NCBI RefSeq assembly: GCF_963675165.1 | Contig: NC_087393.1 | Span: forward strand, 4,407,502-4,471,501 | Direction of reading: 5' to 3' | DNA: 64,000 bases | From: Halichondria panicea | Taxonomy: Eukaryota > Porifera > Demospongiae > Suberitida > Halichondriidae | Shown here: in pieces, positions 8,886 through 60,846 of the stretch | Numbering within the stretch: the stretch's first letter is position 1 | Layout: each line of letters begins with the position of its first letter | Notes under the pieces: model-generated | Told to the model about the DNA's origin: nothing | The model's input: the letters and a program-made list of their open reading frames with translations, nothing else | The model's database searches: none | Translations under genes and position numbers: made by a program

Positions 8886-10007
8886 ACCGTATAGCGGGTA
8901 ATTTTTGTGGGCAAGCTGACTACCGGAACGTAGGAATGCTGTGCTTGGCAACTATAGACTAAACCAAATTTTTACTCACGAAAACCACCGTTTCTCAAGT
9001 TGAACGAATTTTTGACCCCACGAAAATGACCCGCTATACAGTAATGGGGCTATAATTATGTGTGTGGGTGTGTTAATTTCGCATGCGCAGTATGTGTACC
9101 TGCATGCATATGTGCAAGTGTTTCTTTAGACACTATTATCTATTATGCTATAAACTTATTCCTCACATAAATTATCAGGGCCTATACTAATAGTAGTTTC
9201 CACCATGCACCTTAAAATTGTTTTCGGTAGTTGTTTTGAGTTGCAGTTCCTTATCTGTACATGTATTGTACCATGATCGCTCTATCAAAGCAATTTATAC
9301 TGTCAGTCAATCTGAATTTATATTATTATAGCAATAGTCATGCAGTCTAGCTGGTTGCTAGAAGACCAATTTTTTATGCGTCTGAATTTGTTACCGGGAT
9401 CTGAAGGTAGGTATATAATATTAGCCTCGATCCAAAATCTTATTCACAGCCCTGTAATATTCTTATACTCTCTCGCTCTCCATTATAAATCTGTTCAACA
9501 CATTCTTCCACCAATCACTAACGGATCTTCTATATAGTCTCCAGATATGTCAGTTGGCATTATATTAACGTAACTTTCTGTCTTTGTAGGACATGCACAT
9601 CTTCTGTTAACATTATCATGACCTGCAGGGGATGCATGCATTACTTCTTGATTTATGTATGTACCACGGATATATAGTGGGTATATATTTCGCGGATGTT
9701 TAATCACCGAAACATTACTTCAGTACCCCTCGAAATCTGATACACGCTAGTGAAGGATTAATTGGGAAGTTCATACAAAAATGTTGCACCAACGAAAAGT
9801 ACCCGCTATACGGTACTCTAAGCATGCAGGGTTAAGGTTATACCATATAGTGCAACATTTTCGCTGTTTCGTGGGGCCGGTAGCAATCATACGAAAATTG
9901 TTCTTTCATTAGATAATATGCAAGATTAATTAAAGGCGTGGCTTCCGGTAAGCATGCAGTCAACCCACGAAATTTAAGTGCTGCTTCGAAAATGTCGCGC
10001 TGTACAG
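8886..10007. mobile_element. Cluster of three TATAGCGGGTAATTTTCG-family MITEs
   Basis: Copies lie at about 8886-9043, 9670-9815 and 9840-10007. Each has ends of the type ACCGTATAGCGGGTAATTTT and its complement AAAATTACCCGCTATACGGT, or the variant with GCGCGAAAATTTT. They appear to target TA, suggesting a Tc1/mariner-type mobilising source (inference). Related copies occur near 5.36, 10.5, 12.25, 17.97, 18.26, 30.58, 33.05 and 50.13 kb. No gene is visible between them. Confidence 0.6.
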
Positions 10008-30938: not shown

Positions 30939-33900
30939 TTAAAATGGACTAAGTGTTTTTGTGGGTGATAGTTTGTGTGCAGAGTAGCGCTGGTTCAACT
31001 CATCTTGCAAGACCCCGGCTCTCTGTTGCAGAATACTGATCTGGGTTCTCAAGCTCTTGATGGTGTCTTCATATTCCTACAGGGGTAGAAATGAAATTAC
31101 AATAGTGCATCAATTGTAACCGCCGCAAGTAATACATGTAAAGCTCTCTAGCCACAAAATTGTCATTCTGAGAGCATACATACATGTACTAAGGGAATTA
31201 ATCAAGGATGTGAGCTTTCCCATACCACACACTATAGGAATCACTTGGCAGAGGATGCCACTACCTCCCTAACCTTGACCACACGGAGTCATGCATGGGG
31301 CCTCTAATGGCAAACAGTGTGTGACATTCTCTGGCACCTCTCACGCACAACACACCTGTTTCACAGCCAATGGTAACATGCCCCTCAGCTTCTCCTCATA
31401 GGAACGCTTCAACTGAGACAGCTGCAGTGTACAAAACGGGTCGTGAAATTCGATACATATTATGTAAGTGTAAAACACGAATAGAAGAAAAGCACTCTAG
31501 CATAGCAGAGATTATTCGAGCATGTACATGTACATGTAAGTAGAGTAGGAATGTATCCATCAATTATCAACTGAAAAGCATGCAGATTACAGGCTACACT
31601 TGACTTCTCTAGGTAAAGGAGGTGACAAACATTTGAGTTGTGCTCAGCCAGCTGGTGTTTGCTCCTCTCCTGGTGCTGTGACACAGTGAGGTGGGCTGCC
31701 TCAGCCTCCTCCGTCAAACTCTGGGAGGGTAGCCAACATAGAGTGCAGTTAAATTAACCGTTATTTTATTATAGTTAAGTTTCTACAAGCAACAAAAGGC
31801 AAAAGGAGGAGCTTTGCAACTGCTTGGACATACTACAGAGGAGTCTCAACAAACATGGCTGACGGCTGACAGACAACAGTCAGAAACACATCTAGTGAAC
31901 ATGGGGACCTACTATTATACACATGCAGCAATGACATTCATACATGCAATAATTATTGTGACTGTCACAGTTGGTGACAATGATATCAATGATCATACAG
32001 ACCACATGCACTGGTTGGTTCCAACTACTAGTGTCTACCACTCCCTGGCTAAACAGGGACTCACCTGTCGAATGGAGTCATGGTGTTGTTTCATGCCGTC
32101 CATTTCCTCACCGTTACGGTGCATCAACTCTCTCATGTGATCCTCATGTGAGCTCTGCTGTCTGCAGGGGAAAACAGAATCAAATGCATTTCTCTCCACA
32201 CATGAATAATGTTTGAGAAAATTGCTAAAAAAACAAAATACGTGTGTATATTTACATATTTGAGAGAAAGGAGAAAGAAAAAAAAACGCTCGAAAGGTGG
32301 AATTGAACCACTGTGACGTCAATCACCTACAGGTCTGAAGCCTGCACCCCACACCAGTGAGGGTCATTCAAGCAATGGAATAATACCCAACATTTGCTAT
32401 TTAAACTACACATGAGCTATACATTAACAAAAAAGATGCACCATCTCAGGTATGAGACAACTTTATTTGCAGTGCATACAATCAGGAGTACATCTCATGA
32501 TACCTGATAATATAATTCCATTTTAGGAAATTTGACTCACTTTTTCATGTTTTCCTCTAGAAACTGGACCTGCGCTTTCAGTGATGTCATAGTCTGAAGT
32601 AGTAAACACAACACAGCATTCAACACACAGACATTAAGTATACAGGCATACACTATAGTTTTATGACTACACCAGAGGAGGTATGACATCAACGAGCCCC
32701 ACACATTCCCCAGGTCAAAGTTCAATTGCGTGTTACCAGAACTCTTGGCGCCTACTGTTTTTTCGTGCACAGTTTGATCTAAGTTATATTAGCTTAATCA
32801 ACCATCGTTTCTGCTTCAGAATCTTCAGGAGGGATGCCTGGAGTTGCCATGAGTATCACTTTGTTTAATGTGGTATTGAACATTGACAGGATATATATAA
32901 TAAGGAATGTGGTGAATCAAACACTTCCTGCAACTCGCAGGTGTCGTACATGTACGTCTTCTGGACTACTACATGTACATTACACGACAGGGAGTGCAAT
33001 CATATGGTACTAATGCAAGTACAAGATCAACCTACTACAAATATTGTATAGCGCTAAATTTCGTGGGTTAGCAATCCTTATACGAAAATTGTAGAATTAT
33101 CTGCTATAACGTGCAAAGATTAGAGGCGTGGCTTCCGGTAAGCAGCCATTCCACAAAATTTAAGCGCCTCGAAAATTTCGCGCTATACGGTACATTACAG
33201 GACAGGCAGTGCAATCACCTATCTACACAAGTACAAGCACAAGATCACCTACTACAATGTATGTGTACGCCTGTATGTGTACGTGTACATTACAGGCAGT
33301 ACAACAAGTACAATACAAGCACCCCTTACACACCCACCTTAACTGTCTCTCAGTGAGTACTATACAAGCACCCCCTCCCCCCCACACACCTTGGTTGACT
33401 GGCTGTCTCTTAGTGAGTACTATACAAGCACCCCCCTCCCCCCACACACATTGGTTGACTGGCTGTCTCTTAGTGAGTACTATACAAGCACCCCCCTCCC
33501 CCCACACACATTGGTTGACTGGCTGTCTCTTAGTGAGTACTATACAAGCACCCCCCTCCCCCCACACACCTTGGTTGACTGGCTGTCTCTTAGTGAGTAC
33601 TATACAAGCACCCACCTCCCCCACACACACACCTTGGTTGACTGACTGTCTCTTAGTGAGTACTGGTGCTCTACCTGCCGATGCTGGTGGTCGTGCTACA
33701 AAGTAGATAAAGAACAGCTTGAGAACAGTGGTGCAAGGTACAATGTAGGCCCACAACAGACTACACTGGTGGAACAATGTACAAGATGGGTACTGTGGGA
33801 TAGCCTTACTTTTTCAGTCAGGGATTTTATCTCTCGTTTATGCTCCTCCCTGACTCTTGCAAGTTGTGTTTTGAGCTTGCCAATCTGGGGAAGCAAGAGT

Positions 33901-39600: not shown

Positions 39601-42600
39601 GATATCATACTTTCTTGGGGAGACAGCAACTGGAAAAGAACCTGCAGGAATTACCATGTGCTACTGCAGTCTCGTGAGCCGTATTACAATCAGCCCGCGA
39701 GACTAGTGCTACTGAGACTTTACTCTAATAAAGCGAATAATTATGACAACATGTATTTTTCAGATCATTACGGTATCTTCACACAGCAGCCATTTTTGTT
39801 TGGCCGTTTGAAGCTTCTTTTTCAACACACAGGTGTCTAACAGCTTTATTTCAACTCTGAGTAGCTAGCTAGGAGATGGAGACCACACAGGACCCTGCAG
39901 CGCGTGTTTGGTTGCCTCCAGACCCAAAGACCCAGCCCAGAATCACGGATTTCTTCCATAGTAGCCCAGAGAAGGGGGGCACCTCAGAGCAGCTGCAAGA
40001 TGGGCTGCAAGATGAAGCTGGAACAACTACAAGCTCTGCGGGTAAGTAATATTTAGCTAGCTAGACTGAGCTAGCTACCAGCCAAAAACGTTGCATGCAA
40101 ATGACTGACATGACCTCTCAACATTGCAGATAAAACACAGCCAAACGCAACAAATCCTTCACCCAAAAAGAGCGTCAAAGAACCGAAAAAGACAAATACT
40201 TCAACACCTAAAAAAAGAGGTCGAGCAAAAAAGGCTACGAATATGGGGGATGGCGAAATCCCAATAGTGGAACAGGTTCCAGTTGGAGACATATTTTTGG
40301 GTGAGGAGATGATAGTCCAGACATCGCTCAACCCAGTAGAAAAGCCGTTTGTGGAAACTCCACCTAGCAAGAAACGTAGACGGTCATTCACTGTACAACA
40401 AAAACGAGAGGTGATCGAATATGCAAAAAAACACAGTCTCTACAAAGCATCAATCGAATACAAACTTAGCTGTGGTACGATTGGTCCATGGATGAAGAAA
40501 GATTTCTCTGAAATGGAAAGCATGAGTTTGCGAGCACATGGATCGGGGAGAAAGCTTTCGTACCCTCAACGATTTGAGCCTACAATAACCCAGTGGATTC
40601 TCGAGCAAAGAGATATTCGACCTAGCATCACCACTCAAGAAATAATCGATTACGCTTGTTCTCTCATCAAAGCAGAGTGTCCTAATTTCAGAGGCACCCG
40701 AGGCTGGTTTCAAAAATTCCTAGTTCGAAACAACATCTTGAATCCAGACAGTGAGCCACTTTCAAAGACACTTCCTCCTCCTTTAGAGGAAAAAATCACC
40801 AACTTTCTCGAGACTCTCAAGAAAACACGAGCTGAATACGATTATCCATCGGAGCTCATAGCGAACATGGATGAAGTGATTGTCAATATTGACATGGCTA
40901 GCAACAGAAAGACTGATAGAAGCAAGACAATGGTGTTCCCCACGTACACAGTTGGGGGAGAGACACAAAGCTACACACTCGGAGCTGAGAAACAGCACAT
41001 CACAGTGGTCCTGACTGCCTTAGCCAACGGGACACTCCTCCCACCAATGATCATCTTCAAGGGTGTCAAAACTCCCAAACACATTAGTATGCCGAGGTAT
41101 GTTAATACACGATACAATACACTATTAGCTAGCGTAATACACAAACTAGTAGTACATGTAAACACACAGCAAGACTTTATTGCGCATTATAATTATATGT
41201 ACTGTATGTGCTGTATTTCAAACTCACGTACACATGTATGTATATACAGAATACTTTAAAACTGTTAATTCTTTTTTTATACAGTGATTGGCTTGTGTGT
41301 GTCCAGGACAGTGGGTACCTTGACTCTAGTCTAATGGACCTTTGGACCAGGGAGATTTGGCTAAAGCACACCCAGTCTCAAAAAGCTCTCCTAGTGATGG
41401 ATTGCTGCCACCCACATGTGACAGAGGACTACACGACTACTCTATCTCAAAACAACACCACCGTGCACCAAGTCCCAGCCGGTTGTTCGACTAAGCTACA
41501 GCCTGTGTCTGTTACACTTGCCACTCCCTTTAAAGACCTATGCAAAACCTTGTGTGCAATCTACTATCAAGCAAAGCTAAGCTCTCTACAAAACCCAGGT
41601 GACAGGCTAAGATCTGCTTCTAAAGAGGATATCTGCCCTTGGCTAGTTTCTGCCTATACACATGTGACTAAGATGCAATCAGAAGTTGCCATGTCTTTCC
41701 TAACTACTGGCCTAACTCTAGCTATTGATGGCTCGGAAAATGGCTTGTATCGAATTGACAACAAGGTAGAGGCTAAACCTATTCAAGACCAACCTATTGA
41801 AGAGAAAGTCGAGCAAGAAGATGTTCAAGAAGATGTTCAAGAAGAAGCTGTAGTGACCGAGATAGTGACCGACCTAGCACAAGCACAAGGAGATCCAGTA
41901 GTGGCTCTTACAGAGCTCGATAATTCCCTAAGTTCACTCAAGACTCTCTATAGCTACATGCTACAAATGCAAAACAAGGCTCTCTCTGAAAGTGACATGC
42001 AGATACTAGAAGAACAGCTACAAACACAATAACCTGTTGTGTACATACATGTTCAGACACATGACCCTACGTATAATTATGTATTATAATTATAATTATA
42101 GCTTCATAATAATTATTATTATAACCCTAACATTCAGTTTTTTTCATGCCATACTTTGAGGTGCATTTTCGTGAGGTGCAACATCGAGGGCAGAGAAGAC
42201 ACGAAAATTAAAATTTGGGAAAAGATATTTCACATTGGTGGGTGTGGTTTCCTGGTATTGAACCGCGAATATTAGAACCCACGAAAATAATTTCTGCCGA
42301 GGGCTCACGCATGGAGCCAAACAGCGAAAATTTCCCACTATACAGAAACACATGCACATGTACATGTATGTATACGTACAGTACTTACTATTTAGCATCT
42401 TGATTTCTGACTTACTAGTGAAAGCTTTCTTGGGTGAATATGAACCTGAGCTTGAGACCATGAATGAGTGTTTCTTCTCCGACCCCTGTGCACAAAGAGT
42501 TATAATTATGTATATACTCTACAGGCCCACTAATGTGGTCCTGTAAACAGGCATTGGGTACTAGGCACACAGAGTACAGGCCCACTAGTGTGGTCCTATA

Positions 42601-44560: not shown

Positions 44561-47500
44561 CTAACATACTGCTTCATAATCAGACACAAACCCAGTTCTA
44601 GAGCAGCTACCGATTCCTCTACAAACAGAGCAAGCCAATTTCGGGCTATCTTTACACGACCAAAACTCTTTGTTCATCACCGAATACAGGAGACAGCTAA
44701 CTTCAGGGCTTGAGCAGAACTGATGCAAATATCCTCTCGCTTGGCTGAGCACAATATCTCGAGGCATTGAGTAGCTTAGTGTGTTGAAAAATACCATAAG
44801 TTCGTTTATGTGCATGTTCTTGTCGATTGCTTTCTGTCCGTAGATCGCCAAAATCGCTACACAGATAAATAAATGGAAAGAGTTCGTCTTGTAGTTGGAC
44901 CAACACGTCTCCCAGATTATCAGTGCGTCTTCTTCATAGAACTCTCTCTTGAGACAGACAAGTAACCAACGGTGACAAAACATCAATGTGGTCCCGTCCT
45001 CAATATTTTCAAGGTAGATATAGAACGATGGAATGAGCATCTCAATCAAAAGTCGCAGCGGCTCCTGCATGAAACAAAACAACACTTTTATCAATCTACT
45101 GAAATTATAACTGGAAAATTTAGTGGGTGGGGGTGGGTGTTTTAATTTGGCGATTTGGCGATTTGGCGAATTTTACCAAAGATTGCCAAATTTAAAACCG
45201 TCAAATTAAAGTTTTCCGGTGGACACAACGTCATTGCAGCAGTAGGCAATTGCAAATCAAAAAACGCCAATTACATTTCAAATGGCTCATGAGTCAAATT
45301 TTAAAGTTAAGTGAGTAAGTAAGATATATATTTTATGTCTAGAAGGATAGCCTCCTACGCAGCCCTCTGAAACCCTTGCTAATGTGTACATGTACCTCCA
45401 TAATTATAGTTGCTATATTCATGCACAGCACAATACTGGTTAATCTGAGGCCTGCGTACTGGTATATAATTAAAAGCATATTTACTCACAATCTGATGAG
45501 TGACGGAGATGTGGTCTTTGCCCGGTTTGTAGAAGGCACTGCTCTGCACTAGTTTAGTAAAGCACCAGAATGCCTCAGCCTCTTCGTCCAGTGCAGCCAG
45601 CAGAGGAGCCAGGAGATCAGTCATGCCTGTGTGGGAATGAAGACCATTGGTAGCATATCCTGGGAAATGTCCGGGCACATAGTTACAAGTTACTTACAAG
45701 CACGTGCGTTTGATTGGAACCTTTAGCACAAAATCACACTCTCGCTCGGTAATTATGACTAAAACAGTCAAATGTGCTAATCATACATAGTGTACACACC
45801 TTGACAATACCGGATGTTTGGCTTAAAAAGTAGGTAGTTCAAAATGATATCCCTGCAGAGGCAAAGAAGAAATGATAAATGTAGACAGACAATCATGAAA
45901 GACAAAATGATTCATTCTGATTATCATAAGCAGACATTAGCTAGTGGATAACTACAAAACGTTTTGTATAGCCATGCCTATTGTATCTCTGCAACTGGTT
46001 CCCAAAATGGATGTTAACTCAAGTTTAGCTAATTACAGAGCCATCTATACGTACGTACATGAGTGTGTTGCAGTGAGCATTGTCCTCTCCCTTGTAGTAG
46101 GAGGTGGAGCGATCTGTTCTCACCACGTCCTTCTCTATCTGATGGTACACGTCTGGGCGGCCACCCCTCCCTGCTGAGTCAGCACCCCCAGACACATCCT
46201 TCAAGTAACCGCCAGACCTCTCGTTCTCTTTCCTACAATTACACGGTAAACATTGTACTTTCAACATGCCTAGTAATCTACACCAAGCAGGTATAATTAT
46301 AGTCAATCATCACACTGGCACTAATGGCCCTCGGGAATACATACAACACATAAGGGTAAAATCAGTACTGACCCTTTATGTTAAAAATATGCTAAAAGGC
46401 TACAAAAGTGGTGCCAATCCCTACTAAAAACCCTTATGAGATTACGGAGATATTGAAGAACTTATACGTACCTTCTTTTGTCAAGGGCCCAGTATTCGTC
46501 CCTCCTCTTGGCTCTGATGGCATCCCTCTCCCCCGCAGTCGAGTGAAACGTGTAGAGACCCAGAAGGAATGGCCACACCTCCTTCCTTAACGAGGGAGAA
46601 ACCCCTTGTAGGAACACAACCTGGGAATAATGCAAATAAAACGTTATCTTGCTGAAACTACATGTACACAGAGTAAAGTATATTTTAATTTTACTGTTCA
46701 TGTATAGCACACTAATAAAAAATTAAACTGAAACTGCTTCACAAATCAATAATAAGAGGACATACAATGGTGTCTGCCTCAGACATCATCTTAGCAAGGG
46801 CCAGTCACTTGACAACCAAACAAGAAGTTTGCACGATCTACATTTCCTCACCAATAGGGTGTTTTCAATTGTGAGTGAAAGAGAAATTATTATTGGTTCA
46901 CCTTCCTGACGTATCCACTGTCCACAATCTTCCCCTCCTGATCGAGCAGATCTCTCCACACCTCTTTTGTCAGAACACTCTTGATCGTACCCTCGTCTGG
47001 GTGGAGCTCTGAGAGACTCAGCTTGGGACGAAAGATGGTGAATGTGTGCTGATGGGTCTCCTTGTGACAATGGTGCTTGAAGAAACTCCACGAGCGAAAC
47101 AGGTGGATGAGGTCATTGAGTCCACCATTCTTGAAATGAAATACCTGGAAGATATAGTTGTAACTATCAGTTAAAACAGTGCAATAATAGAAACCACACT
47201 TTAAGCTTAATAATAAAGTTAACGTTACATTCCAAGAACAAGGAACACAAACATATTGTGTTTGCAAGCTTTATACTACACTTCCAGTGGGGAAAACAAC
47301 TGCACACATCTGCTCCACGTGCACACAGGCCATTGTGTTCTCAGGACTACATTGTAGTGCCCATACAATCACTATAATACAATTTATCGATCATCACGAT
47401 AATGGGTTGAGGGTTGTAAAACAACAGACAGTGTGTCACTAAGAGCATGCAAGAATACATACTGTACTTCTAAAACAATCACTCACTCTGAATTTCCGGT

Positions 47501-48209
47501 CCTTGCTTGTGATGACCATCTCCCCAGATATGAGCAGCCCATTATCACCAATACGATAAAAAACCCGAATGACCTCCATGAGTCCAAGATCGATGGACAC
47601 GGAGGAACACTCCTCACCCCCAAACCCACCACTATTACTATCCGACAAAGACAAACTTCGACTCCCTCGGGTGACATCAACGGAAACTAGCGATGCTTGG
47701 CGTTGGGCTAAAATACTAGAATTGGGGGCCCAGTTTAAAATGAGTGTGGTTCCGAAATCGGAGCCCCTGGTTGTAATAAATAGGAAGCCTGGAATGAGAT
47801 CTTGGCTATCGCGGCTTGCAGCTGCTGCCCTGGGCAGTCTGGTCTCCTTACTGTTATAGCTGTCACCAGATTCCCCTAGAGAGGAGGACAGAGAATAGTC
47901 ACGAGACGAACGCGAAAGGGATGAAGACGTCGAAACGCTTTTCTTTCGAGGGTGTTTCAGATAAACATTGTTTTTACGGAAAAGTATATCGTCAGCATCT
48001 AGCGTTCCGATTGGTTCAACTGGGGATAGGACGGGTGAGGGTGTGCGACTCCATTCTTTGGATAATGGCTTCTCGCTGTTGTGTGTGACTACTCGTAGCT
48101 CTTGTTCATCAACGTCATTATTGATGCTCTCGAATTGTGGTCTCCCTCTTCGAGTTAGTGTGTTGAACGCTTTATCAATAAATGACTTGACTGTTGTGGC
48201 CATGTTCAT
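44561..48209 (-). CDS. TBC1D16: TBC1D16 Rab GTPase-activating protein (8 exons, about 668 aa)
   Basis: The exons are 47487-48209, 46902-47144, 46766-46789, 46472-46620, 46059-46232, 45800-45852, 45490-45626 and 44561-45064; all phases agree. The N-terminal region carries DDILFRKNNVYLKHP and TTLILNWAPNSS, then RVFHFKNGGLNDLIHLFRSW and RPKLSLSELHP, as in vertebrate TBC1D16. The TBC domain follows, with the arginine finger in EKDVVRTD (R418) and the glutamine finger in YCQG (Q455), so GAP activity is expected. FCHRWLLVCLKREF and FHLFICVAILAIYG mark the C-terminal lobe. In mammals it acts on Rab4A in endosomal recycling. It is tandem with CEP112, 265 bases apart. Start ATG is at 48207-48209, or 48201-48203 two codons later. 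Confidence 0.94.
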
Positions 48210-48544
48210 CTGGAGGTTAGTAACCAATCTCAGTGAAGCTCTGCAGAGAGTATCAAAACCTAGTACCTCATACTAGATATAATTATCAGTAGACTACATA
48301 ATGTAGGTATATAAATTATAGGTATAGCTATGGTCTACCTGTTACAGATCAATATAATGCCATTTCTTTGTTCCTCTTCTTGCTGTAATAGTTAAGTTCT
48401 GCAAAAGAAACTCAAAATTATCTTTGTTTCTTTGCCTGCTTCCGGTGGGGGCGTGTTTTCAGAATTCTCAAACAACGACCCCGACACGTGGTACAACAAA
48501 AAGCGGTTGCATCGCGCGTCATCCACCCACACACACTCCTGATT

Positions 48545-48713: not shown

Positions 48714-48911
48714 ATCAAGACACAAAAAGGATGTACGCACAATCATTAAATACGTATGAGGATCTATTCTACTGTTAGCTACCTCTGCAGATCAAAAAGA
48801 CAAACTATATAAATCATACATACATATATCATATCTACATAATTTTATATCTACATGCTCTAATAAAAATAGTCTACCACTTTCGTCAACAAAGCGTACG
48901 TGCATGACAAA

Positions 48912-51900
48912 CTACATATACTTGCTATCTAATTGTGTGACCAAGTCAGTGTGTAGTGGGTTGAGTCTGAGAGTGGAGACAAACTCGTGGTACTTGTGGG
49001 GGTGGTGTTTGACCACACCCAGCAGGGCAGTGTACAATCTGGTGGCCTTCTCTCTCTTGGTCTCATTTAACTCGTTGGTTTTCTCAAGAATAGACACAGT
49101 GATGAGCCCAGCTGACAGGAGGTGGAGGGCCAAACCCTTTGGATCCTCAGAGAGTGACTGGACTATCTTCTCACTGCAGCTCACCAGCACACTGTAGCCA
49201 GCGTTACCTGCAGGAGAGAGGAAATAGTTAGACATGATACGCCCACACAACCTAAGTCTACAATGTACATGTAATGTGAACAAATGACTCAGTACAGTAT
49301 ATACATGTATAATAAAAGTTAAAGGTAATTACTTAAAGAAAAAAGATTACAGGTTCAGCTCTGGAGTATCTGCATGAAGTGTACTATGAGACACTGACTT
49401 CAGAAATGTCGATGGAATAGCTACAAAAGCACATAATATTATCTTTGTGTGGATGAGTCACTTTTTCTTGCGAGAAAATAATCATGTGATACGTTGCTGC
49501 TCGCAATCGATAAAGTAGAGTCAGTCTGTATATATGCATAGAAATAATTATGATTGTAATCTAAGTTTTTAAAAGTACCTTGTTTTCATGTTCTTCTAAA
49601 ATAGGAGCTATTTTTTCGGTCTCATTTTACTGACTAAATGTTTTTATGGTTCCAGTCTCTGGGTAATAGAAAGATATCGAGGGTCAGTATAACGTTATAT
49701 TAACTAAAGATGTACTAATATTGGGGTCTCTCTCAACGTACCACTTGTTATATTTATAAGAGCTGCTTCATGCAGATTTAAAATTTCACGAAGATGCTAT
49801 CTAGTAGCTCAGTGGCGTAGGCAGAGGGGGGGTTGATGGGGCTAGAGCCCCCTGCTTCATCAACTCCAACTCAGCTTGAATCACCGTTATCTGTCAATCT
49901 ATTCTGCACTGTACTGCATGCATATCGTTACTATATAATGATGTCATTCAATAGAAATGTGGGCAGGGGCCTTCCATCTAAGAGGAAAAGTGATGACCTT
50001 TTTTTTTAGGTAAAATTCTAAGTTATTCAGCGCCTGCTCTGGCCTTGCTCAACCAATTTGAGCCCTGCCCTTCTCAAAATCCTGACTACGCCACTGTAGC
50101 TACCTGTTTTTTTGTACATCTATATATATAGCGGGTTATTTTTGTATGGTGGACATTTTTGGATATTTTGTATTGTAGAGCATCATACGAATTATTCTAC
50201 CGCAATATATAGTAGACCAATATTGTTCATACATTTGCACCAACGAAAATTACCCGCTCACTAAAACTAAGACTAAGACAGCATGCATAGTTAAATAGTA
50301 TATCATATAGCTACTCACCTTTGGCTGACAAGTACTGTGCCACCTTGATAGCAACGTCTCCTTTGTCCAGGGAGATTAGGATGAGTAGCAGAGCTCTGAA
50401 GGTGCCCTCTGCAACAACTCTGTCCAGCCAATATTTCAGAGCCAACTTTATTCCAGCTTGTGTTCGATTCATGGCTGTTCTAGCCTTCTCTTCAATGACA
50501 TCAGTTTGCTGTCCAGGTGAGAGCCTCAGCATTTCAACATAGTCATTAGTGTTGTCGAAATATGACGATAATTTGGGAAGGTCTATTTCTTCTATTCTTG
50601 TGTCAAGCTGCTCGTCAGTGATATTACTTTCTCTCTTTAGTGTTTCAACGGTTAGACCTGATAACACAATAATTAACATCACACTTGTGCCTTTGGGCTT
50701 CTAAATCCCATGACACCTCCAAAACAGTGTCTAACTATTATTATTAAAGCACCATGCATAGTGTCCAATGTATTAGAATCACGAAAAATTTCCCAGAAGT
50801 GTCTGGGATAATTGAATAATTGTTAACTGATAATAGTATACAGCTACCTTGTAATGTTTGTGGAGCACACAATTATCTTTGATGATGCAAAATAGCATTC
50901 TAGCTTTGTGTATAATACAGTATCAACTTACTGGTAGGTACTTCTCTTAGGGTGTTTATTGTGACGTCACTTTGCTGTCCAGATGAGAGGCCTGACTCCA
51001 GATAGCCGTCATGGGTGCTGTCAGATTGTGACAACATTTCAGAGAGGTGTGTTTCTTCTACTGTTGTGTCAAGCTGCTCGTTAGTGACTTCAATGTCTCT
51101 CTCAATAGGCAAACCTTGCGAAGGAAAGGATCGAGAGCGGGTTTGTTGCAGGACATAATACAACAATAATTTTAAATTCAATGTCAACGTATATACTACT
51201 AATAAAGGCATATACACATGCAATCGCAGATTATTGCTTACTTTGTAGCTGTTGTTTTTGGCTGATTAGTTTGTCAGAAGTTTCAGTAGCTGTGGAATCC
51301 TGACTAGCTGTAGGTGACATATCCTCTTGTAGTTCATTCAGATCTTCAGCAGTAGATTTGAAGTCCGTATCATCACTGGTAGAATCTTCTGAATCAGTAT
51401 TACTGTACTGTGAGTGTAAGGAGATAATTATATATATTTCACATGTACTCATGCCTTTTACGACTTTCAGCCTGATCAAAAAAGCAAAAAGTATATATTT
51501 GGCAGTATACAATAATTTTTGACGGCAATCATCATCGTTCTTATCAAAAATTTAAACATTACATACATAGTAGGTCTTGTATATAGACACTGTATTTACT
51601 TACTTCTGGTAGAGAGTCACTTGCATCATCTGGTATTGATTCAGAACTAGTGTAATCAAATTCTTCATCTTCAGACGTGTTTCTCTCCTATAAAATGATG
51701 CAATATAATATTCACAGTAACCATGCAATGTGCATGGCTATATGTATATATACATAATCCAAATAATACGTTACGAAACTTCGACACAATTTCGCGAAGC
51801 TTCGTTAAATGTTCGTGAAGTTAACATTTAGAAACTAAAGTTCAAAATCCGTTATTTGGGGTTTACGCCTCAGGTTAATGAGGATATTAAATTTGTAAAC

Positions 51901-54900
51901 CTTTCCAAGCTTGTGACGAAGCTTCTCAAACCAAGTGCTAAGTTTTTGCAATTAACCTACGATACATTTCAAGACTATAAATTAGGACTATAGAGTGTGA
52001 TCTAGTTACTACATGGCTGAGGGCTTCTATAAAGCATGGACACCAACAAACAGTGTCTCAGTCGTTTAGGTACTAGTGCACATGCGTAAACCTGTCTCGT
52101 GGCTTGACTATACAATACTACTTTTCTTGACAACGGGAAACTAAGTAAGTTGTAGGTATACTAAGTCCCATAGTATACCTCCTCTGAGGCACTGTTCCCA
52201 TGTACTTTTCACATGTAGATCTTATCAACTAGTGTGTGTATAATTATATATAACACTAAGAGCTGCAACTCCGGGTTATAATATATATACAGCAATACCA
52301 ACAGTCAGAACAGATTTCCTCAAAACTTGATGAATCTTTTTCGTACAATGAAATTGCTGGAGTCTTACCTGCAAAAACTCTTCAAGTCTTTTCAATCCCT
52401 CCGTACTCACGAGATTGTCATCTAGATCAATATCTTCAATACATGGAAACACAGAAGGCAAATAAGTAATAAGGGCAGTCACTGCGTCATCACCAATGCT
52501 GTTGTTTTGAAGGTCCAAACATTTTAAACACTTTCGTTGAATATCGTGAGATTTAAGGTATGAAAATAATGTAAATACATCATTTGAAGTAACCTGACAC
52601 TGATCACAATCCAGCTTCTCCAGTGATGGACAGCACTGAATACATTCAGCTAGTATGAAAATGTTCTTGCCATGAAGCAAATTTCGCCAAAGACCGATAC
52701 TTATTGTATTGCTGTTAAGAGATTCTGAATTTAAAACAGGATTGTTCAAACAGAGGTCAGTAATGGAAGTGTGAAGGGTTGATTCCAGGTGAAGTCTTGT
52801 TATTGGACAGTTTTCGCTAGAGAGCATTCTAAAGATGGCTGACAAACCACTGTGTCCAAGTGGATTGTTATCAACACACAACTTAATTTTACAGGAGAGT
52901 GGGTTTGAAACATCCTCAAAAGAAGCCAATACTTTATCAGAAAGTTCTTTCGCTGCTTCACTGTCGAGATTAGTCTCACTTAAGTTCAACTCCAACTCCT
53001 TCCTATTAGTAGCAAGTCTTACAAACGCCTTTCCTATTGCACCAGCTCCAGGTACACCGATATTGTTCTCAGAAAGATCAAGGTCCTCCAGATGAGGACA
53101 GTGAGAGGCAATTGATGGTAAGAGTTCAGTTAGTAGTCTTCCATTCTCCTCAACATTGTCAGGGAGGGTATTTGATAGTTGCATCCTCTCAAGATTACCA
53201 AAAATGTTGGCTTTAATAGCGATTGTCAAGCAAGCAACATGAGTGTCCCCGCTTGGTTTGTTGTTTTGAAATGACAGCTTTTTCAATTTGTTAAATTGAC
53301 CAAAATAAGTTGCCTTTATTTGACCTTGATTGACTGCATGTGTGTGGTCTAGATCAAGTCTTGTTACTGGACAGTTTTCGTTAGAGAGCATTCTAAAGAT
53401 GGCTAACAAGCCGCTGTGTCCAAGTGGGTTGTTATCAACATGCAAATCAATTTCACAGGAAAGTGGGTTTGAAACATCCTCTAAAGAAGCTAACACTTTG
53501 TCAGAAAATACTTTCGCTGCTTCACTGTCGAGATTAGTCTCACTTAAGTTCAGCTCCAACTCCTTCCTATTAGTAGCAAGTCTTACAAAGATCTCTCCTA
53601 TTGCACCAGCTCCAGGTACACCGATATTGTTCTCAGAGAGATCAATGTCATTCAGATGAGGACAGTGAGAGGCAATTGATGGTAAGAGTTCAGTGAGTAG
53701 TCTTCCATTCTCCTCAACATTGCCAGGGAGGGTGTTTGATAGTTGCAACCATTCGAGATTACCAAAAATGTTGGCTTTAATAGCCATTGTCAAGCAAGCT
53801 ACATGAGTGTTCCCGCTTGGTTTGTTGTTTTGAAAATACAGGTTTTTCACTTTGCTACATTGACCAGGTAATGTTAGCGTTCCAATTGAGATTGCCGTTA
53901 TTTGGCCCTGTTTGACTGCATGTGTGTCGTCTAGATCAAGTCTTGTTACTGGACAGTTTTCGTTAGAGAGCATTCTAAAGATGGCTAACAAGCCGCTGTG
54001 TCCAAGTGGGTTGTTATCAACACGCAAATTGATTTCACAGGAGAGTGGGTTTGAAACATCCTCTAAAGAAGCCAATACTTTATCAGAAAATTCTTTTGCT
54101 GCTTCGCTATTGAGATTAGTCTCACTTATTAATAATTTCAGCTCCAAATCCTTCCTATTAGTAGCAAGTCTTACAAAGATCTCTCCTATTGCACCAGCTC
54201 CAGGTACACCGATATTGTTCTCAGAGAGATCAATGTCATTCAGATGAGGACAGTGAGAGGCAATTGATGGTAAGAGTTCAGTGAGTAGTCTTCCATTCTC
54301 CTCAACATTGTCAGGGAGGGTATTTGATAGTTGCATCCTCTCAAGATTACCAAAAATGTTGGCTTTAATAGCCATTGTCAAGCAAGCTACATGAGTGTCC
54401 CCGCTTGGTTTGTTGTTTTGAAATGACAACCTTTTCAATTTGCTACATTGACCAGGAAATGTTAGAGTTTCAAAATGAGTTGCCGATAATAGGCCCTGGT
54501 TGACTGTATGTGTGTGGTCTAGGTCAAGTCTTGTTACTGGACAGTTTTGGTTAGAGAGCATTCTAAAGATGGCTAACAAACCGCTGTGTCCAAGTGGATT
54601 GTTATCAACACGTAAATCAAGTTCACAGGAGAGTGGGTTTGAAACATCCTCTAAAGAAGCCAATACTTTATCAGAAAATTCTTTTGCTGCTTCGCTATTG
54701 AGATTAGTCTCACTTAAGTTCAGCTCCAAATCCTTCCTATTAGTAGCAAGTCTTACAAAGATCTCTCCTATTGCACCAGCTCCAGGTACACCGATATTGT
54801 TCTCAGAGAGATCAATGTCATTCAGATGAGGACAGTGAAAGGCAATTGATGGTAAGAGTTCAGTGAGTAGTCTTCCATTCTCCTCAACATTGTCAGGGAG

Positions 54901-57900
54901 GGTGTTTGATAGTTGCAACCATTCGAGATTACCAAAAATGTTGGCTTTAATAGCCATTGTCAAGCAAGCTACATGAGTGTTCCCGCTTGGTTTGTTGTTT
55001 TGAAAATACAGGTTTTTCACTTTGCTACATTGACCAGGTAATGTTAGCGTTCCAATTGAGATTGCCATTATTTGGCCCTGTTTGACTGCATGTGTGTCGT
55101 CTAGATCCAGGGGCGGATCCAGGAAAAACAAAAGGGGGGGGCTAGCTAGAAAGTGGGGAAGCCCCGTACGAGGGTGGCGGAGCCGCCCAGGGCAGCCTCG
55201 CCAGAGGCGAATTTTTTTGCAAGATTTGACCTTTAAACTTTTATATTAATACGTTGACCTCTGCACTTACTTTTAATACTATGGTGATACTGTACTGATC
55301 AGATGTACGTACGTACAGCTAGCTAGCTAGCTAGGTACGTCCAGCTAGCTACCCTAGATCCTTTATACTCCTAGTAGCTGTTGTCTAGCATCTCTCAAGT
55401 GATTTCAAGTGAGTCTACAGATGCATAATTGGTGGCAAAATTGTTGTAGAGTCAGACTACAACACATGGTAGTTTTTTCAAAAGGGGGGGGCTTCAGCCC
55501 CTCAAAATCACCCCTGGATCCGCCCCTGAGATCAAGTCTTGTTACTGGACAGTTTTCGTTAGAGAGCATTCTAAAGATGGCTAACAAGCCGCTGTGTCCA
55601 AGTGGGTTGTTATCAACACGCAAATTGATTTCACAGGAGAGTGGGTTTGAAACATCCTCTAAAGAAGCCAATACTTTATCAGAAAATTCTTTTGCTGCTT
55701 CGCTATTGAGATTAGTCTCACTTATTAATAATTTCAGCTCCAAATCCTTCCTATTAGTAGCAAGTCTTACAAAGATCTCTCCTATTGCACCAGCTCCAGG
55801 TACACCGATATTGTTCTCAGAGAGATCAATGTCATTCAGATGAGGACAGTGAGAGGCAATTGATGGTAAGAGTTCAGTGAGTAGTCTTCCATTCTCCTCA
55901 ACATTGTCAGGGAGGGTATTTGATAGTTGCATCCTCTCAAGATTACCAAAAATGTTGGCTTTAATAGCCATTGTCAAGCAAGCTACATGAGTGTCCCCGC
56001 TTGGTTTGTTGTTTTGAAATGACAACCTTTTCAATTTGCTACATTGACCAGGAAATGTTAGAGTTTCAAAATCAGTTGCCGATAATAGGCCCTGGTTGAC
56101 TGTATGTGTGTGGTCTAGGTCAAGTCTTGTTACTGGACAGTTTTGGTTAGAGAGCATTCTAAAGATGGCTAACAAGCCGCTGTGTCCAAGTGGGTTATTA
56201 TCAACACGCAAATTGATTTCACAGGAGAGTGGGTTTGAAACATCCTCTAAAGAAGCCAATACTTTATCAGAAAGTTCTTTCGCTGCTTCACTGTTGAGAT
56301 TAGTCTCACTTAAGTTCAGCTTCAACTCCTTCCTATTAGTAGCAAGTCTCACAAAGGCCTCTCCTATTACACCAGCTCCTGGTACACCAATATTGTTCTC
56401 AGAAAGATTAAGGTCCTTCAGATTAGGGCAGTGTGTAGCTAATGCTGGAAGAAGTGTGGCTAACATTGTTGTATTGATAATATCTGTGTCGTTTGTCAGT
56501 GCACTAGATAGACACAAGTACTCAAGTTTTACTAGTGAACCTGCGCGTACAACACTCTCTAGTGACTGGACGCCATTTTGCCAGAGTGGATTCTTGGATA
56601 AAGAAAGGCTAGTTAATGTGTTATTGCTGGATGAAAATGGTAAAGCTTTGATAAAGTTTCCATCTAGAGATACTTTGTAAAGATACCGAAATGATGCTGA
56701 TGCTTTGTTAAAGAAGGTCTCGAGACATTCACCTGTGAGCTTGCAGTTATCGAGACTTAATTCTTTTACTTGCAACTTTCTATCAATGAGGATAGTAGCT
56801 AGTTTCTGAAGCTGTTCATCATTAAGACTCCCTGAAAAATCGAGCTTGACCTCTGAACAATGTGATATACAGTTAAAAATGTGCAAAAGAGCTACACTGT
56901 CGTGAGCAGTTTGGGGCCTTCTGATTGATCTATAACAATAACTAAACTTGGCATAAATTCTGTTGGCTACTTTACAATGCACAACCTTATCCTGGGATTC
57001 CAATGAGCAGTGGCAAAGTAAAATGTCTTGGTCTCTTATTGCAAATAAAACTTGATCAACCAATGTATCACCTAAAGAGACTACTTGGTCCCTATATTTC
57101 ACTTCTTTAGACTTAAGACCGAACACAAATCTCCAGACCATATTAAACCGATTGTTTCCAGCATAAGTGTTGCAAATCTTTGTTTTCTCTTCATGAGATA
57201 AAATGACGATATGAAGGGCAGCTAAAAACTCCTGAATAGTCAAGTGAGCGAAGTGAAACGACAAGCCATAACCTGTTGTCAATGAGTTTTGTTGGCTAGG
57301 GAAATGTGAATGTGCTGATTGCAATAAACCAAAAAAAAACGCCTTCTTATTAAACTTCCCATCTTTAGAAAACGATGAAACTTCACTGTCTGAGAAGACT
57401 ATTCGATCTTTAGCCAAAAATTCAAAAGCAAACCTGCAAACTAGCCAGAAATCATTTTGAAGTTCATCAGGAATGGAATCGAAATTGTCAAGCGAGTCTA
57501 CACAGTGTTGTGGACATTTCTTCCTAATGTCACGAAGCACGACAGACAGTGTTATCCTAGCATATAGTTTTGTGATTGTGCTTGGAAGTGTTTGCTGTAA
57601 GTTGTGGCGCCACAGGTCACAAACAATCGCACAATTAAGTGGCACAGAGCACAAACTCTGAATGAGTGGATTGCTTTTAAGCTGCTCCATAAGAGAAGAA
57701 GCCTTTTCTGGATCATCTTTGAAATCCTCAACTATGTACTGTTTAATATTTTCTTCATCAAAACCCACCACCTCGATGAAAGCGTCCACTGAAGAGAGTG
57801 TGTGAAAAGGTTCTGTTGCAGAATGTCGGGAGGTGAGGAGAACAGATGCTTTGGAACAACCATAACCAAGAAGAAGTTCATATAGAAACGAGCCAGTAGC

Positions 57901-58479
57901 TCGAGCACCCTCACTTAGTTCGTCCCAGCCATCAGCTATGATGAGGACACCTTCTCCCTCTTTACCCTTCATCCTTTTTGTTGGAGGTATGCAGGTCTCC
58001 TCATCGGGATGGAAAAGTTTAATCAGCTCAGGGAGGCTTGTGGCAGAGGACACTCGATTTTCTCTCAGTGGAAGCAGCAGAACACAATCAAATTGTTTCA
58101 GGATATTACCTTTTGCCCACTCCTCAGTAAGCATGGTACACAGTGTAGTTTTACCAATCCCAGCATTGCCTTTCACAACAATCTTCCTTACTGGTTTGTT
58201 GTCACTGCTAGTAGACTTGAACAGGTCAGTGTGGAGTATTGATTTGCGTTTCTCTTTGTCATCTTTGTCATCTTCAGGTTGCTTGCCATTGCCACTCGAA
58301 CGATTCCCCTTGTTTCCAAACCCTTTTATTTTATCAGTCTCGACTAATTGCAGTTTGAAAAGTCTTCTAAGTTGTCCGTCTCCTCTAACTGGTAGCCATT
58401 GTTTATTTTCTCCAAACTCTCTGTTTATGTATTTTTTCTTGAGACTAGTTACAAACCTGTTCATGCATGCATGTATCAT
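48912..58479 (-). CDS. Giant NACHT-LRR receptor with C-terminal DEATH and CARD
   Basis: Exons are 52369-58479, 51604-51687, 51242-51407, 50932-51114, 50319-50657 and 48912-49207, about 2,250 residues if the MITE at 55108-55528 is excluded. NACHT has Walker A GNAGIGKTT (104-112), Walker B VLIIADGWDEL (about 178-188) and sensor LLTSR. A long ribonuclease-inhibitor-type LRR array follows. The donor after LEEFLQ joins in phase 0 to an acidic Ser/Asp linker. A truncated DEATH-like exon, a full DEATH domain (LPKLSSYF...YWLDRVV...DKGDVAIKVAQYL) and a CARD-like domain (LLSAGLITVSIL...YHEFVSTLR) then follow, with stop at 48912. The true N-terminus is unsure: MIHACMN is encoded by TGCATGCATG repeat, and an acceptor-like CAG at 58464 suggests an upstream exon. 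The MITE brings stop codons. A separate DEATH-CARD gene is possible but less likely. Confidence 0.8.
49810..50096. mobile_element. 287-bp hAT-like MITE, duplication TAGCT
   Basis: CAGTGGCGTAGGCAG and CTGACTACGCCACTG are the ends; TAGCT flanks both sides (49805-49809, 50097-50101). It is a sister copy of 24569-24866. It lies in the intron between the DEATH and CARD exons of the NLR. A TATAGCGGGT-family MITE follows at about 50129-50262. Confidence 0.8.
52835..56430 (-). repeat. Near-identical LRR modules of about 585 bp, partly in paired higher-order units
   Basis: The module boundary phrase CPVTRLDL recurs about every 585 bases (near 53350, 53940, 54530, 55545 and 56120). Each module encodes about 195 residues with VDNNPLGHSGLLAIFRMLS and LSENNIGVPGAGAIG. 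The modules around 53.9-54.5 and 55.5-56.1 kb share an extra LLI insertion and are almost identical, and the modules that precede them also match, implying duplication of a two-module block. Confidence 0.9.
55108..55528. mobile_element. 421-bp MITE inserted in the NLR LRR coding region, duplication AGATC
   Basis: The ends CAGGGGCGGATCCAGG and CCTGGATCCGCCCCTG are inverted, with AGATC at 55103-55107 and 55529-55533. Sister LRR modules carry the empty site CTAGATCAAGTC. Element plus duplication is 426 bases, a multiple of three, so the host frame is the same on both sides, but the element contains stops in that frame. Confidence 0.92.
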
Positions 58480-59120
58480 GGATAATTCAGACTATAATTA
58501 CAGTGCTTTTCAAGCAAGTTACATAATTATCATTCAAAGTTGTTGTTGAAGTAAGTAACGTGCATGCATGTATGCATACAGTACTTTTAGTCTATAAACT
58601 TTCAGGCAAGACCATTAGAAAGATTTTTGCGATTTTAATCTTTGCGAAATAGCAGCAGCATGCATGTCATGTCAAATGTTCGCTGTATTCCAAATCAGCG
58701 AAACTGCAAACACTGATTAGTATACCCTCAAAGTATACCCGCTATTATGGTACTATACTGATACTCACGCAGCTTTGTGTTTGAGTAGTGAGTACTCAAT
58801 TTAACATTCATTGAACCTACTTGAAAAGCACTGTACAATTCAATACAATACTCTTATACACAGTGCAGTCTTATAATGAAAGCACCGCGGGTGCTGATGC
58901 CTCGGTGGAGGTGCCAAAGCTACATAACATAAAGCTGCTATAGCTAGCTTTTATACACACATTGATTATATAATTATCATGATGAACATTTTTAATTTTG
59001 CTGCATGCAGAATCCAGAATCACAGGGAAACTCAAAGAGTGGGTAATGATCGACGATGATTGTTAATAACATCAAGAGTTTACGATAGAGAGAGAGTATC
59101 GAACGTAGGCATACTGTACA
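58480..59120. other. Upstream region of the NLR, no gene seen
   Basis: This should hold the NLR promoter and any missing first exon. I could not identify an N-terminal DEATH or CARD exon here on the minus strand. The sequence is AT-rich. Confidence 0.4.
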
Positions 59121-59334: not shown

Positions 59335-60846
59335 ATCTGATACCCTGCCTATGGATACATGGTCAACACCTCTAAAACTCATCTGATAGTAAAAGCCAGC
59401 CAACTCTCAGAAGCCCAAACAACTTTCGAAGACACACAGATCAACATCACCACAATTGGGAAACCACACTTAGGATCCCCTCTTGGAAGCCAGGAATTCA
59501 CAGAGTCATTTGTCAGAGATAAAGTGCAGACCTGGTTAGAGGAACTGAAAAAATTGTCGATCATTGCGAACACCCACCCTCAAGCCGCTTATGCCGCTTT
59601 CACCCACGGCATTGTAGGTAAATGGACGTACCTAGCGAGAACCACCCCAAACATTGGCCCACTGTTACAACCACTGGAAGACATCATAAGGACAAAATTA
59701 CTCCCAGCCCTGTGTGGAAGAGCAGCCCCCAATGACACAGAAAGGGACCTGCTGGAACTTCCAGCTAGGCTAGGTGGAATAGGGGTCATCAACCCAACAA
59801 CTCTGTCAGACTCGGCCTACTCTGCCTCCAAACAAATCTCTGCGCCCCTCTACAACCTCATACTAAACGGAAGCCTGGACTATACACACGAGGCTCTCAC
59901 AGAGCAGTTTACAGCAAGTTAGAGGTCAAAAAAAGAAAAAGGGAGCTAAACGTCACTTCTGCAGACCAGCTCAAGTCAAACCTACCACCTAACCTCCAAC
60001 GAGCTATGATCTTATCCCAGGAAAAGGGAGCCTCAAACTGGTAACAGTACTACCTGTGGAAGAATTTGGCCTAGCACTGCACAAAGGTGCCTTCAGAGAC
60101 GCACTAGCACTCAGATATGGGTGGCAACCCAATGGCACCCCAATCACATGCGCTTGTGGCACCAACTTCTCAGTGGAACACGCGTTATCATGTGCCAAAG
60201 GTGGCTATCCCTCCATAAGGCATAACGAGATCAGAGACTTCACGGCCAACCTCATGTCAGAAGTTTGCCACAATGTCGCCATAGAACCACATCTACAACC
60301 CATCATCGGCAAAATTCTGTCAGGTGCATCTGCCAACACACAAGATGGTGCCAGATTAGACGTGGCAGCAGATGGTTTTTGGGGAAGCAGGTTTGAGAGA
60401 GCATTTTTTGATGTTAAGAGAGCCTATGACCAACGAATCAGAGATGTAGAAAACTCGACCTTCACTCCCCTCATCCTGTCAAGTACTGGGGGCCTTGGAC
60501 GTGCCGCTACCTCCACCTACAAGAGATTGGCGTCTCTCCTGTCAACAAAATGGGATCAGCCCTACAGCACCACCATGGGATGGATCAGATGCAGGCTGTC
60601 CTTCTCTCTCCTCAGATCAGCCATCATGGGCATTAGGGGGGCCCGATCAAGCCAAGGGCACGCCACCAGACAGCCCCCTATCGACCTAGTGACAAGCGAG
60701 TCTCTGGTCCCACCACACCCATGAACTAACTACACATGACTTATTTGCCTGCATGGTTCCTCGTTATTATTATTATTCTTTTGTACATGTAATTCTTCTT
60801 AGCCCCGAGATGGGAGAGCTATGAAAAAAAAAAAAAAAAAAAAAAT
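59335..60846 (+). pseudogene. 5'-truncated non-LTR-like retroelement: RT tail, zinc motif, endonuclease
   Basis: Three frame blocks are visible. 59335-59922 reads like the C-terminal part of a reverse transcriptase (KTHLIVKA, INITTIGKPHLGSPLGS, RLGGIGVINP). Roughly 59893-60040 continues in another frame. 60043-60724 has CACGTNFSVEHALSCAKGG followed by RHNEIRDF, then RLDVAADGFW and AFFDVK, a spacing that fits a PD-(D/E)XK restriction-like nuclease. This order recalls R2-type elements with a C-terminal RLE; the exact clade is not settled. WIRCRLSFSLLRSAIM marks the tail. Frameshifts at about 59.9 and 60.04 kb make it non-functional. A poly(A) run at about 60823-60845 marks the 3' end. Confidence 0.65.

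Follow-up and report, generated by a model that had tools for sequence, protein, structure and literature searches.

A clade of NLR genes in the sponge Halichondria panicea with a DEATH domain behind the leucine-rich repeats

We analysed a 64,000-nucleotide stretch of the genome of the demosponge Halichondria panicea (C17:4407502-4471501, hereafter the window), which contains on its minus strand an NLR gene in which a NACHT domain and leucine-rich repeats (LRRs) are followed by exons for an acidic linker, a predicted DEATH domain and a predicted CARD. Searches of the 131-Mb genome of this species well support, at the sequence level, a clade of NACHT-LRR genes whose DEATH domain follows the LRRs and for which no head domain was found. 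We consider it probable that the window gene is one copy of this expanded clade, built in the inverted order NACHT, LRRs, acidic linker, DEATH and signalling from its tail, that this copy was recently split, and that a CARD block may serve as its optional last domain.

The gene begins with an open reading frame (ORF) of 1028 amino acids for the NACHT and the first LRRs (55405..58491), open throughout; both the NACHT (PF05729, 3.5e-22) and the LRRs that follow it (PF13516, 1.1e-8) lie over the Pfam cut-offs. The remainder of the LRR exon (52369..55107) ends in the donor CAG|GTAAGA at 52369, in phase 0. Downstream on the same strand lie exon A (51604..51687, phase 0) and exon B (51242..51407, phase 1), which together encode 83 amino acids of acidic linker and are defined by their splice sites, by paralogues and by the RefSeq model P0003 (LOC135351625 isoform X2). 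These are followed by exon C (50932..51114, phase 1), recognised by domain comparison as a half copy of the DEATH domain, by exon D with the DEATH domain itself (50319..50657, phase 1) and by exon E with the CARD fold and the stop codon (48912..49207), its phase compatible with exon D. The joined LRR-A-B-C-D-E frame is open up to the stop codon in E, and P0003 connects the LRR exon through A, B and C to D without a change of frame. The initial annotation had described exactly this donor, five downstream exons with phases 0, 0, 1, 1, 1, and a tail of acidic linker, half-DEATH, DEATH, CARD and stop; the donor, exon ends, splice sites and phases were recovered exactly, and the predicted folds of D and E, together with C as a half copy of D, bear out the described content. 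Since five tandem paralogues on C11 keep the order NACHT-LRR, A, B, C, D and P0003 reads the same exons, the A-B-C-D chain is real and beyond chance.

No convincing match to a DEATH or CARD head near the NACHT was obtained with six queries over 5.5 kb 5' in the window copy, and the same search in seven paralogues, 0.5-3.3 kb 5' of their NACHTs, gave a sole match across all, at E 0.56. The N-terminal DEATH domain by which NLRD is defined (PMC12909245) was therefore not found within these 5' stretches.

Regarding the nature of the tail domains, structure prediction gives a six-helix DEATH fold for exon D and a CARD fold for exon E, as had been proposed for 50319-50657 and 48912-49207, while Pfam profiles call neither domain in these exons. 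Of the 14 members of alignment A1, 9 are matched by the Pfam Death profile with E values of 1 or less, the best being 1.7e-5; the window's D is not among the nine, and one D-type domain of P0001 is over the Death cut-off. With the Pfam CARD profile, none of the nine members of alignment A2 matches at E up to 1, and thus E is called a CARD by its fold only. All 16 protein matches to the window tail are H. panicea RefSeq models, and across D one of these shows 100% identity.

The inverted order was found to be common in the clade. The 105 NACHT rows were reduced to 99 places (five split matches merged, one 72-base fragment dropped), 41 of them in the window's clade (46-100% identical) and 58 distant (28-36% identical), and every NACHT place was paired with all 245 distinct DEATH-like places, using all 150 + 150 rows. 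Each genome search scores only its best candidates, so that absences in these counts are soft. A DEATH exon lies 3' on the same strand and within 9 kb in 24 of the 41 clade NACHTs, four of which also carry a DEATH farther 5' (5.5-8.8 kb), and in none of the 41 was a DEATH present solely 5'. Among the distant NACHTs, 35 of 58 show the usual head arrangement, with a DEATH lying 1.1-2.4 kb to the 5' side, and three of these have another 7.5-8.7 kb 3'; for the other 23, none was found among the best-scoring candidates. Pairing with a DEATH on the opposite strand was seen in neither set (0/41 and 0/58). At individual loci, L033 (C7:3303000-3312500) carries a half-DEATH exon and a DEATH exon behind an open NACHT-LRR frame of 1,934 amino acids; at L034 on C13, a DEATH comes after the NACHT-LRR. 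About 0.85 kb past the DEATH exon of L033, an open stretch (9032-9343) resembles, by eye, a second death fold.

Five RefSeq models (P0038, P0045, P0058, P0065 and P0145) combine an N-terminal NACHT, LRRs, a linker and a C-terminal DEATH in one protein. The initial annotation had suggested looking for the same tail in related sponge NLRs, and its DEATH part is present within H. panicea, both in the 24 clade copies and in these five models. Among 120 sponge-like ORF proteins, the picture for a tail signature was mixed: many pass the LRR end with V at the donor position, and others finish in a different conserved C-terminus. Death is missing from all five precomputed Pfam lists, and our own Pfam search of P0038 and P0065 gave none at E up to 0.01. 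Because Pfam misses the tail DEATH, a domain census would file such genes as effectorless NACHT-LRR proteins, that is, NLRX.

Several observations weigh against the inverted, tail-signalling reading of the clade. Pfam gives no Death call for the window's own D, and no DEATH was found, among the best-scoring candidates, for 17 of the 41 clade NACHTs. In each of the five C11 copies the NACHT-LRR frame is broken by frameshifts or stops, though some of these may be unrecognised introns. The RefSeq gene models are predictions, and of the 120 entries listed, eight are NACHT models from H. panicea, three of them without a D-like domain and one with only half; no D-like domain was detected in P0034, P0074 and P0089, and P0071 carries half a DEATH. 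The window copy itself is split, its NLR coding sequence being interrupted by stops within an insert.

The insert is a 421-bp element (55108..55528) with 16-bp inverted ends and a 5-bp target duplication (GATCT), which splits the LRR exon and adds nine in-frame stops; the NACHT part and the LRR-DEATH part are consequently separate open frames in the assembly. Its best other genomic copy is 99% identical (best 40 of 177 candidates scored), from which we conclude that the insertion is recent. As assembled, the window copy thus cannot make a full receptor and gives at most two half-receptors. The receptor of inverted geometry that had been envisaged for this locus holds as a design common to the clade but not as an intact product of this copy. 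Whether the window copy is a decaying pseudogene, the family being real and the locus no longer making a receptor, is evenly poised in our judgement. The recent insert with its stops and the five C11 copies, broken too, speak for decay. On the other side, the frame has stayed open to either side of the insert, the locus has a RefSeq model for an LRR-DEATH protein, and a close relative of the same subfamily, the 1,830-amino-acid ORF P0018 (ENA) on another contig, is without this insert. Besides, when D is compared with the C11 copies, the ratio of nonsynonymous to synonymous substitution rates (dN/dS) is 0.35-0.52, and in the comparison with L033 it is 0.27; all these values are under 1, so that the tail has been under constraint.

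The status of the CARD exon is similarly balanced. Exon E belongs to a dispersed block of about 416 bp (48895..49311, minus strand), in which the exon is preceded by about 104 bp of intron and its stop codon is followed by another 17 bp. With 40 of 56 candidates scored, 37 other matches were found, none extending beyond window positions 49314-48895, so that this stretch is all they have in common; the C3 and C16 copies share nearly the same CARD block and, in addition, a separate block farther upstream. That E is a stray block not used in frame, with the tail ending in DEATH, has in our estimate slightly less than an even chance. Such a reading agrees with the dispersal of the block and with P0003, the sole RefSeq isoform read, whose C-terminus SAKVCW corresponds to the DNA reading if D is joined to an alternative acceptor inside E (49190..49191, minus strand, the exon then starting at base 49191); in that reading the CARD is out of frame and a stop comes after VCW. 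It also agrees with the C11 paralogues, in which no CARD match was found after D in about 9.66 kb searched in four copies and in the 8.6 kb readable in the fifth, where the last 1,072 bases read N; P0004, the RefSeq model at C11, has GTI as its last residues, as would be encoded by a short exon present in four of the five copies. Against a stray block, E fits exon D in orientation and phase, and the acceptor at 49207 is preceded by 15 pyrimidines in 16 positions versus 7 in 16 at 49191. Eight sliced RefSeq relatives (P0002 apart) begin their CARD with GN[A/T]GY[S/N], as acceptor 49207 would give, and the C-terminus of P0002 is DEATH followed by a CARD 97% identical to E. In addition, changes in E on the window branch are five silent and one replacing (P 0.003, rising to 0.008 when transitions are weighted), although the counts are small. 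Overall, in-frame use of E in the window gene seems about as probable as not. Of the earlier proposal that one tail could recruit two kinds of death-fold partner, the DEATH tail and the fitting phase and orientation of E stand, and the double tail is not established.

It is very unlikely that exons A-E form a separate small gene, or the 5' exons of a next gene, rather than the NLR's tail. The model P0003 has its start within the LRR, past the 421-bp insert, and does not include the NACHT, which would suit a separate gene; the same model, itself a prediction, nevertheless crosses from the LRR to A (52369-51687). The chain is moreover kept in five tandem paralogues, elsewhere five full RefSeq models join NACHT to DEATH, the last codon of E is a stop, and no second NACHT is listed in the window. 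We had also considered whether the tail might instead be a head belonging to another NLR downstream, the arrangement of the arrays on C7; with no second NACHT listed in the window, a stop in E and the LRR read into the tail by RefSeq, this was rejected.

The known case of a C-terminal death fold is NLRP1 (PMC7857732). Nlrp1 forms are tabulated as NACHT-LRR-FIIND-CARD and, in mouse, NACHT-LRR-CARD, without a head domain (PMC10050748), and some fish NLRPs finish in FIIND-CARD; for invertebrates, the same account reports only NLRC and NLRD with N-terminal domains (PMC11508797). The sponge genes resemble NLRP1 of mammals and fish in having a death-fold domain after the LRRs. They differ in carrying a DEATH, in having no FIIND found, in being expanded in the sponge, and in having a CARD that is at most optional in the window copy. 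ZU5 is a part of FIIND. A Pfam search of exon C gave no ZU5, UPA or FIIND, the acidic exons A and B having not been profile-searched. The parallel to NLRP1 drawn in the initial annotation therefore holds for the geometry only, nothing FIIND-like having been found between LRR and tail. Very unlikely, too, is an NLRP1-like autocleaved tail released upon degradation of the N-terminal part, which would fit the death fold after the LRRs and the ZU5 match, below the Pfam cut-off, in P0002 with its nearly identical CARD, but for which only 145 amino acids, acidic and partly half-DEATH, lie between LRR and DEATH; release by degradation is not expected since no FIIND was found in the window gene.

Sponge NLRs are described as mostly NLRX, namely NACHT-LRR without a recognised effector and mainly with no identified N-terminal domain (PMC12909245). 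Genes of the window type share NACHT and LRR with NLRX and NLRD, and a DEATH with the latter; they would be filed as NLRX yet carry a C-terminal DEATH, judged against the class descriptions in that source (PMC12909245). The head-DEATH NLRs on C7 of the same genome have DEATH modules of the same family (three copies, 51-62% identical to D), but there the DEATH lies 5' of a NACHT just 28-36% identical to that of the window. P0002, from the same genome, likewise ends in DEATH and then CARD, but has no NACHT or LRR match, with ankyrin repeats and the sub-threshold ZU5 in front. A NACHT-LRR-DEATH family was not found in the open-licence PMC literature, in which the hyphenated term NACHT-LRR-DEATH does not occur. 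Two candidate precedents were set aside, one concerning lancelet LRR-Death-Kinase proteins (PMC11747288) and the other with a C-terminal death domain that belongs to a kinase-Death-TIR protein (PMC5094078). The NLRs of the sponge Amphimedon are reportedly the subject of Yuen et al. 2014, a study cited in PMC12909245.

A tree built from 24 D-type domains splits the tail DEATHs into two groups, the separating branch having an ultrafast-bootstrap support of 100. One group holds the tails of the window gene, of C11 and of C7:3303, together with DEATHs lying 5' of NACHTs (those of L021 and L027 being assigned to their NACHTs by position only), the DEATH of the ankyrin protein P0014 and, from the ZU5 protein P0001, the first of its DEATHs. 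In the other, the tails from C13 and C8 are grouped with those of P-loop proteins, one of which is identical to the tail of P0038, with the DEATH of P0002 and with the other two DEATHs of P0001. Exon D and its copies on C5 and at C7:5530 are 91-92% similar in DNA, the similarity being lost within 13 bases after the exon, and no matching intron was seen in the stretches adjoining the exon 5' in this comparison. These data indicate that the DEATH module is exchangeable between loci. On the 6571531-bp contig, P0137 (a P-loop protein, labelled by eye) and the NLR P0038 were observed to have an identical C-terminal DEATH domain, and this identity is a sign of recent module exchange.

Based on general NLR biology, we propose a scheme for how such a receptor could work. 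Ligand sensing by the LRRs would free the NACHT to oligomerise, which would gather the DEATH domains at the C-terminal rim; the acidic linker could let the tail DEATHs stack and nucleate a filament with DEATH-bearing adaptors, with an output equal to that of head-DEATH NLRs from the opposite end of the protein. The window copy, recently split by a small transposable element, can make at most two half-receptors as assembled, and the CARD block, having landed behind D in the right phase, might be added by splicing as an optional terminal domain.

More tentatively, and with somewhat more doubt than confidence, many apparently effectorless NLRX of sponges may constitute a second, inverted NLR class that signals from the tail through a DEATH too divergent for Pfam. 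The tail position would then follow NACHT-LRR descent while the modules (two DEATH lineages and, in one case, a CARD block) are swapped, head- and tail-DEATH receptors would feed the same death-fold network, and the window copy would add or skip its CARD by choice of acceptor. For a clade with 24 such copies found, a divergent DEATH at the far end offers a direct answer, open to testing, to the question of how NLRX signal. It further shows that NLRP1 is not the only animal NLR in which the death fold can leave the head, and both designs in one genome, with exchangeable modules, make a natural experiment on whether the position of the effector matters.

Elsewhere in the window, ORFs 3' of the tail (46462-48272, minus strand) look like a TBC-domain protein, Pfam having given nothing convincing on two pieces of them. 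On the plus strand, two long ORFs at 40114-42029 resemble a pogo-type DDE transposase, and ORFs at 59341-60724, 5' of the NLR and opposite to it in strand, resemble parts of a non-LTR retroelement. A selenocysteine tRNA gene lies at 32288-32373 on the minus strand, as identified by ARAGORN and Rfam.
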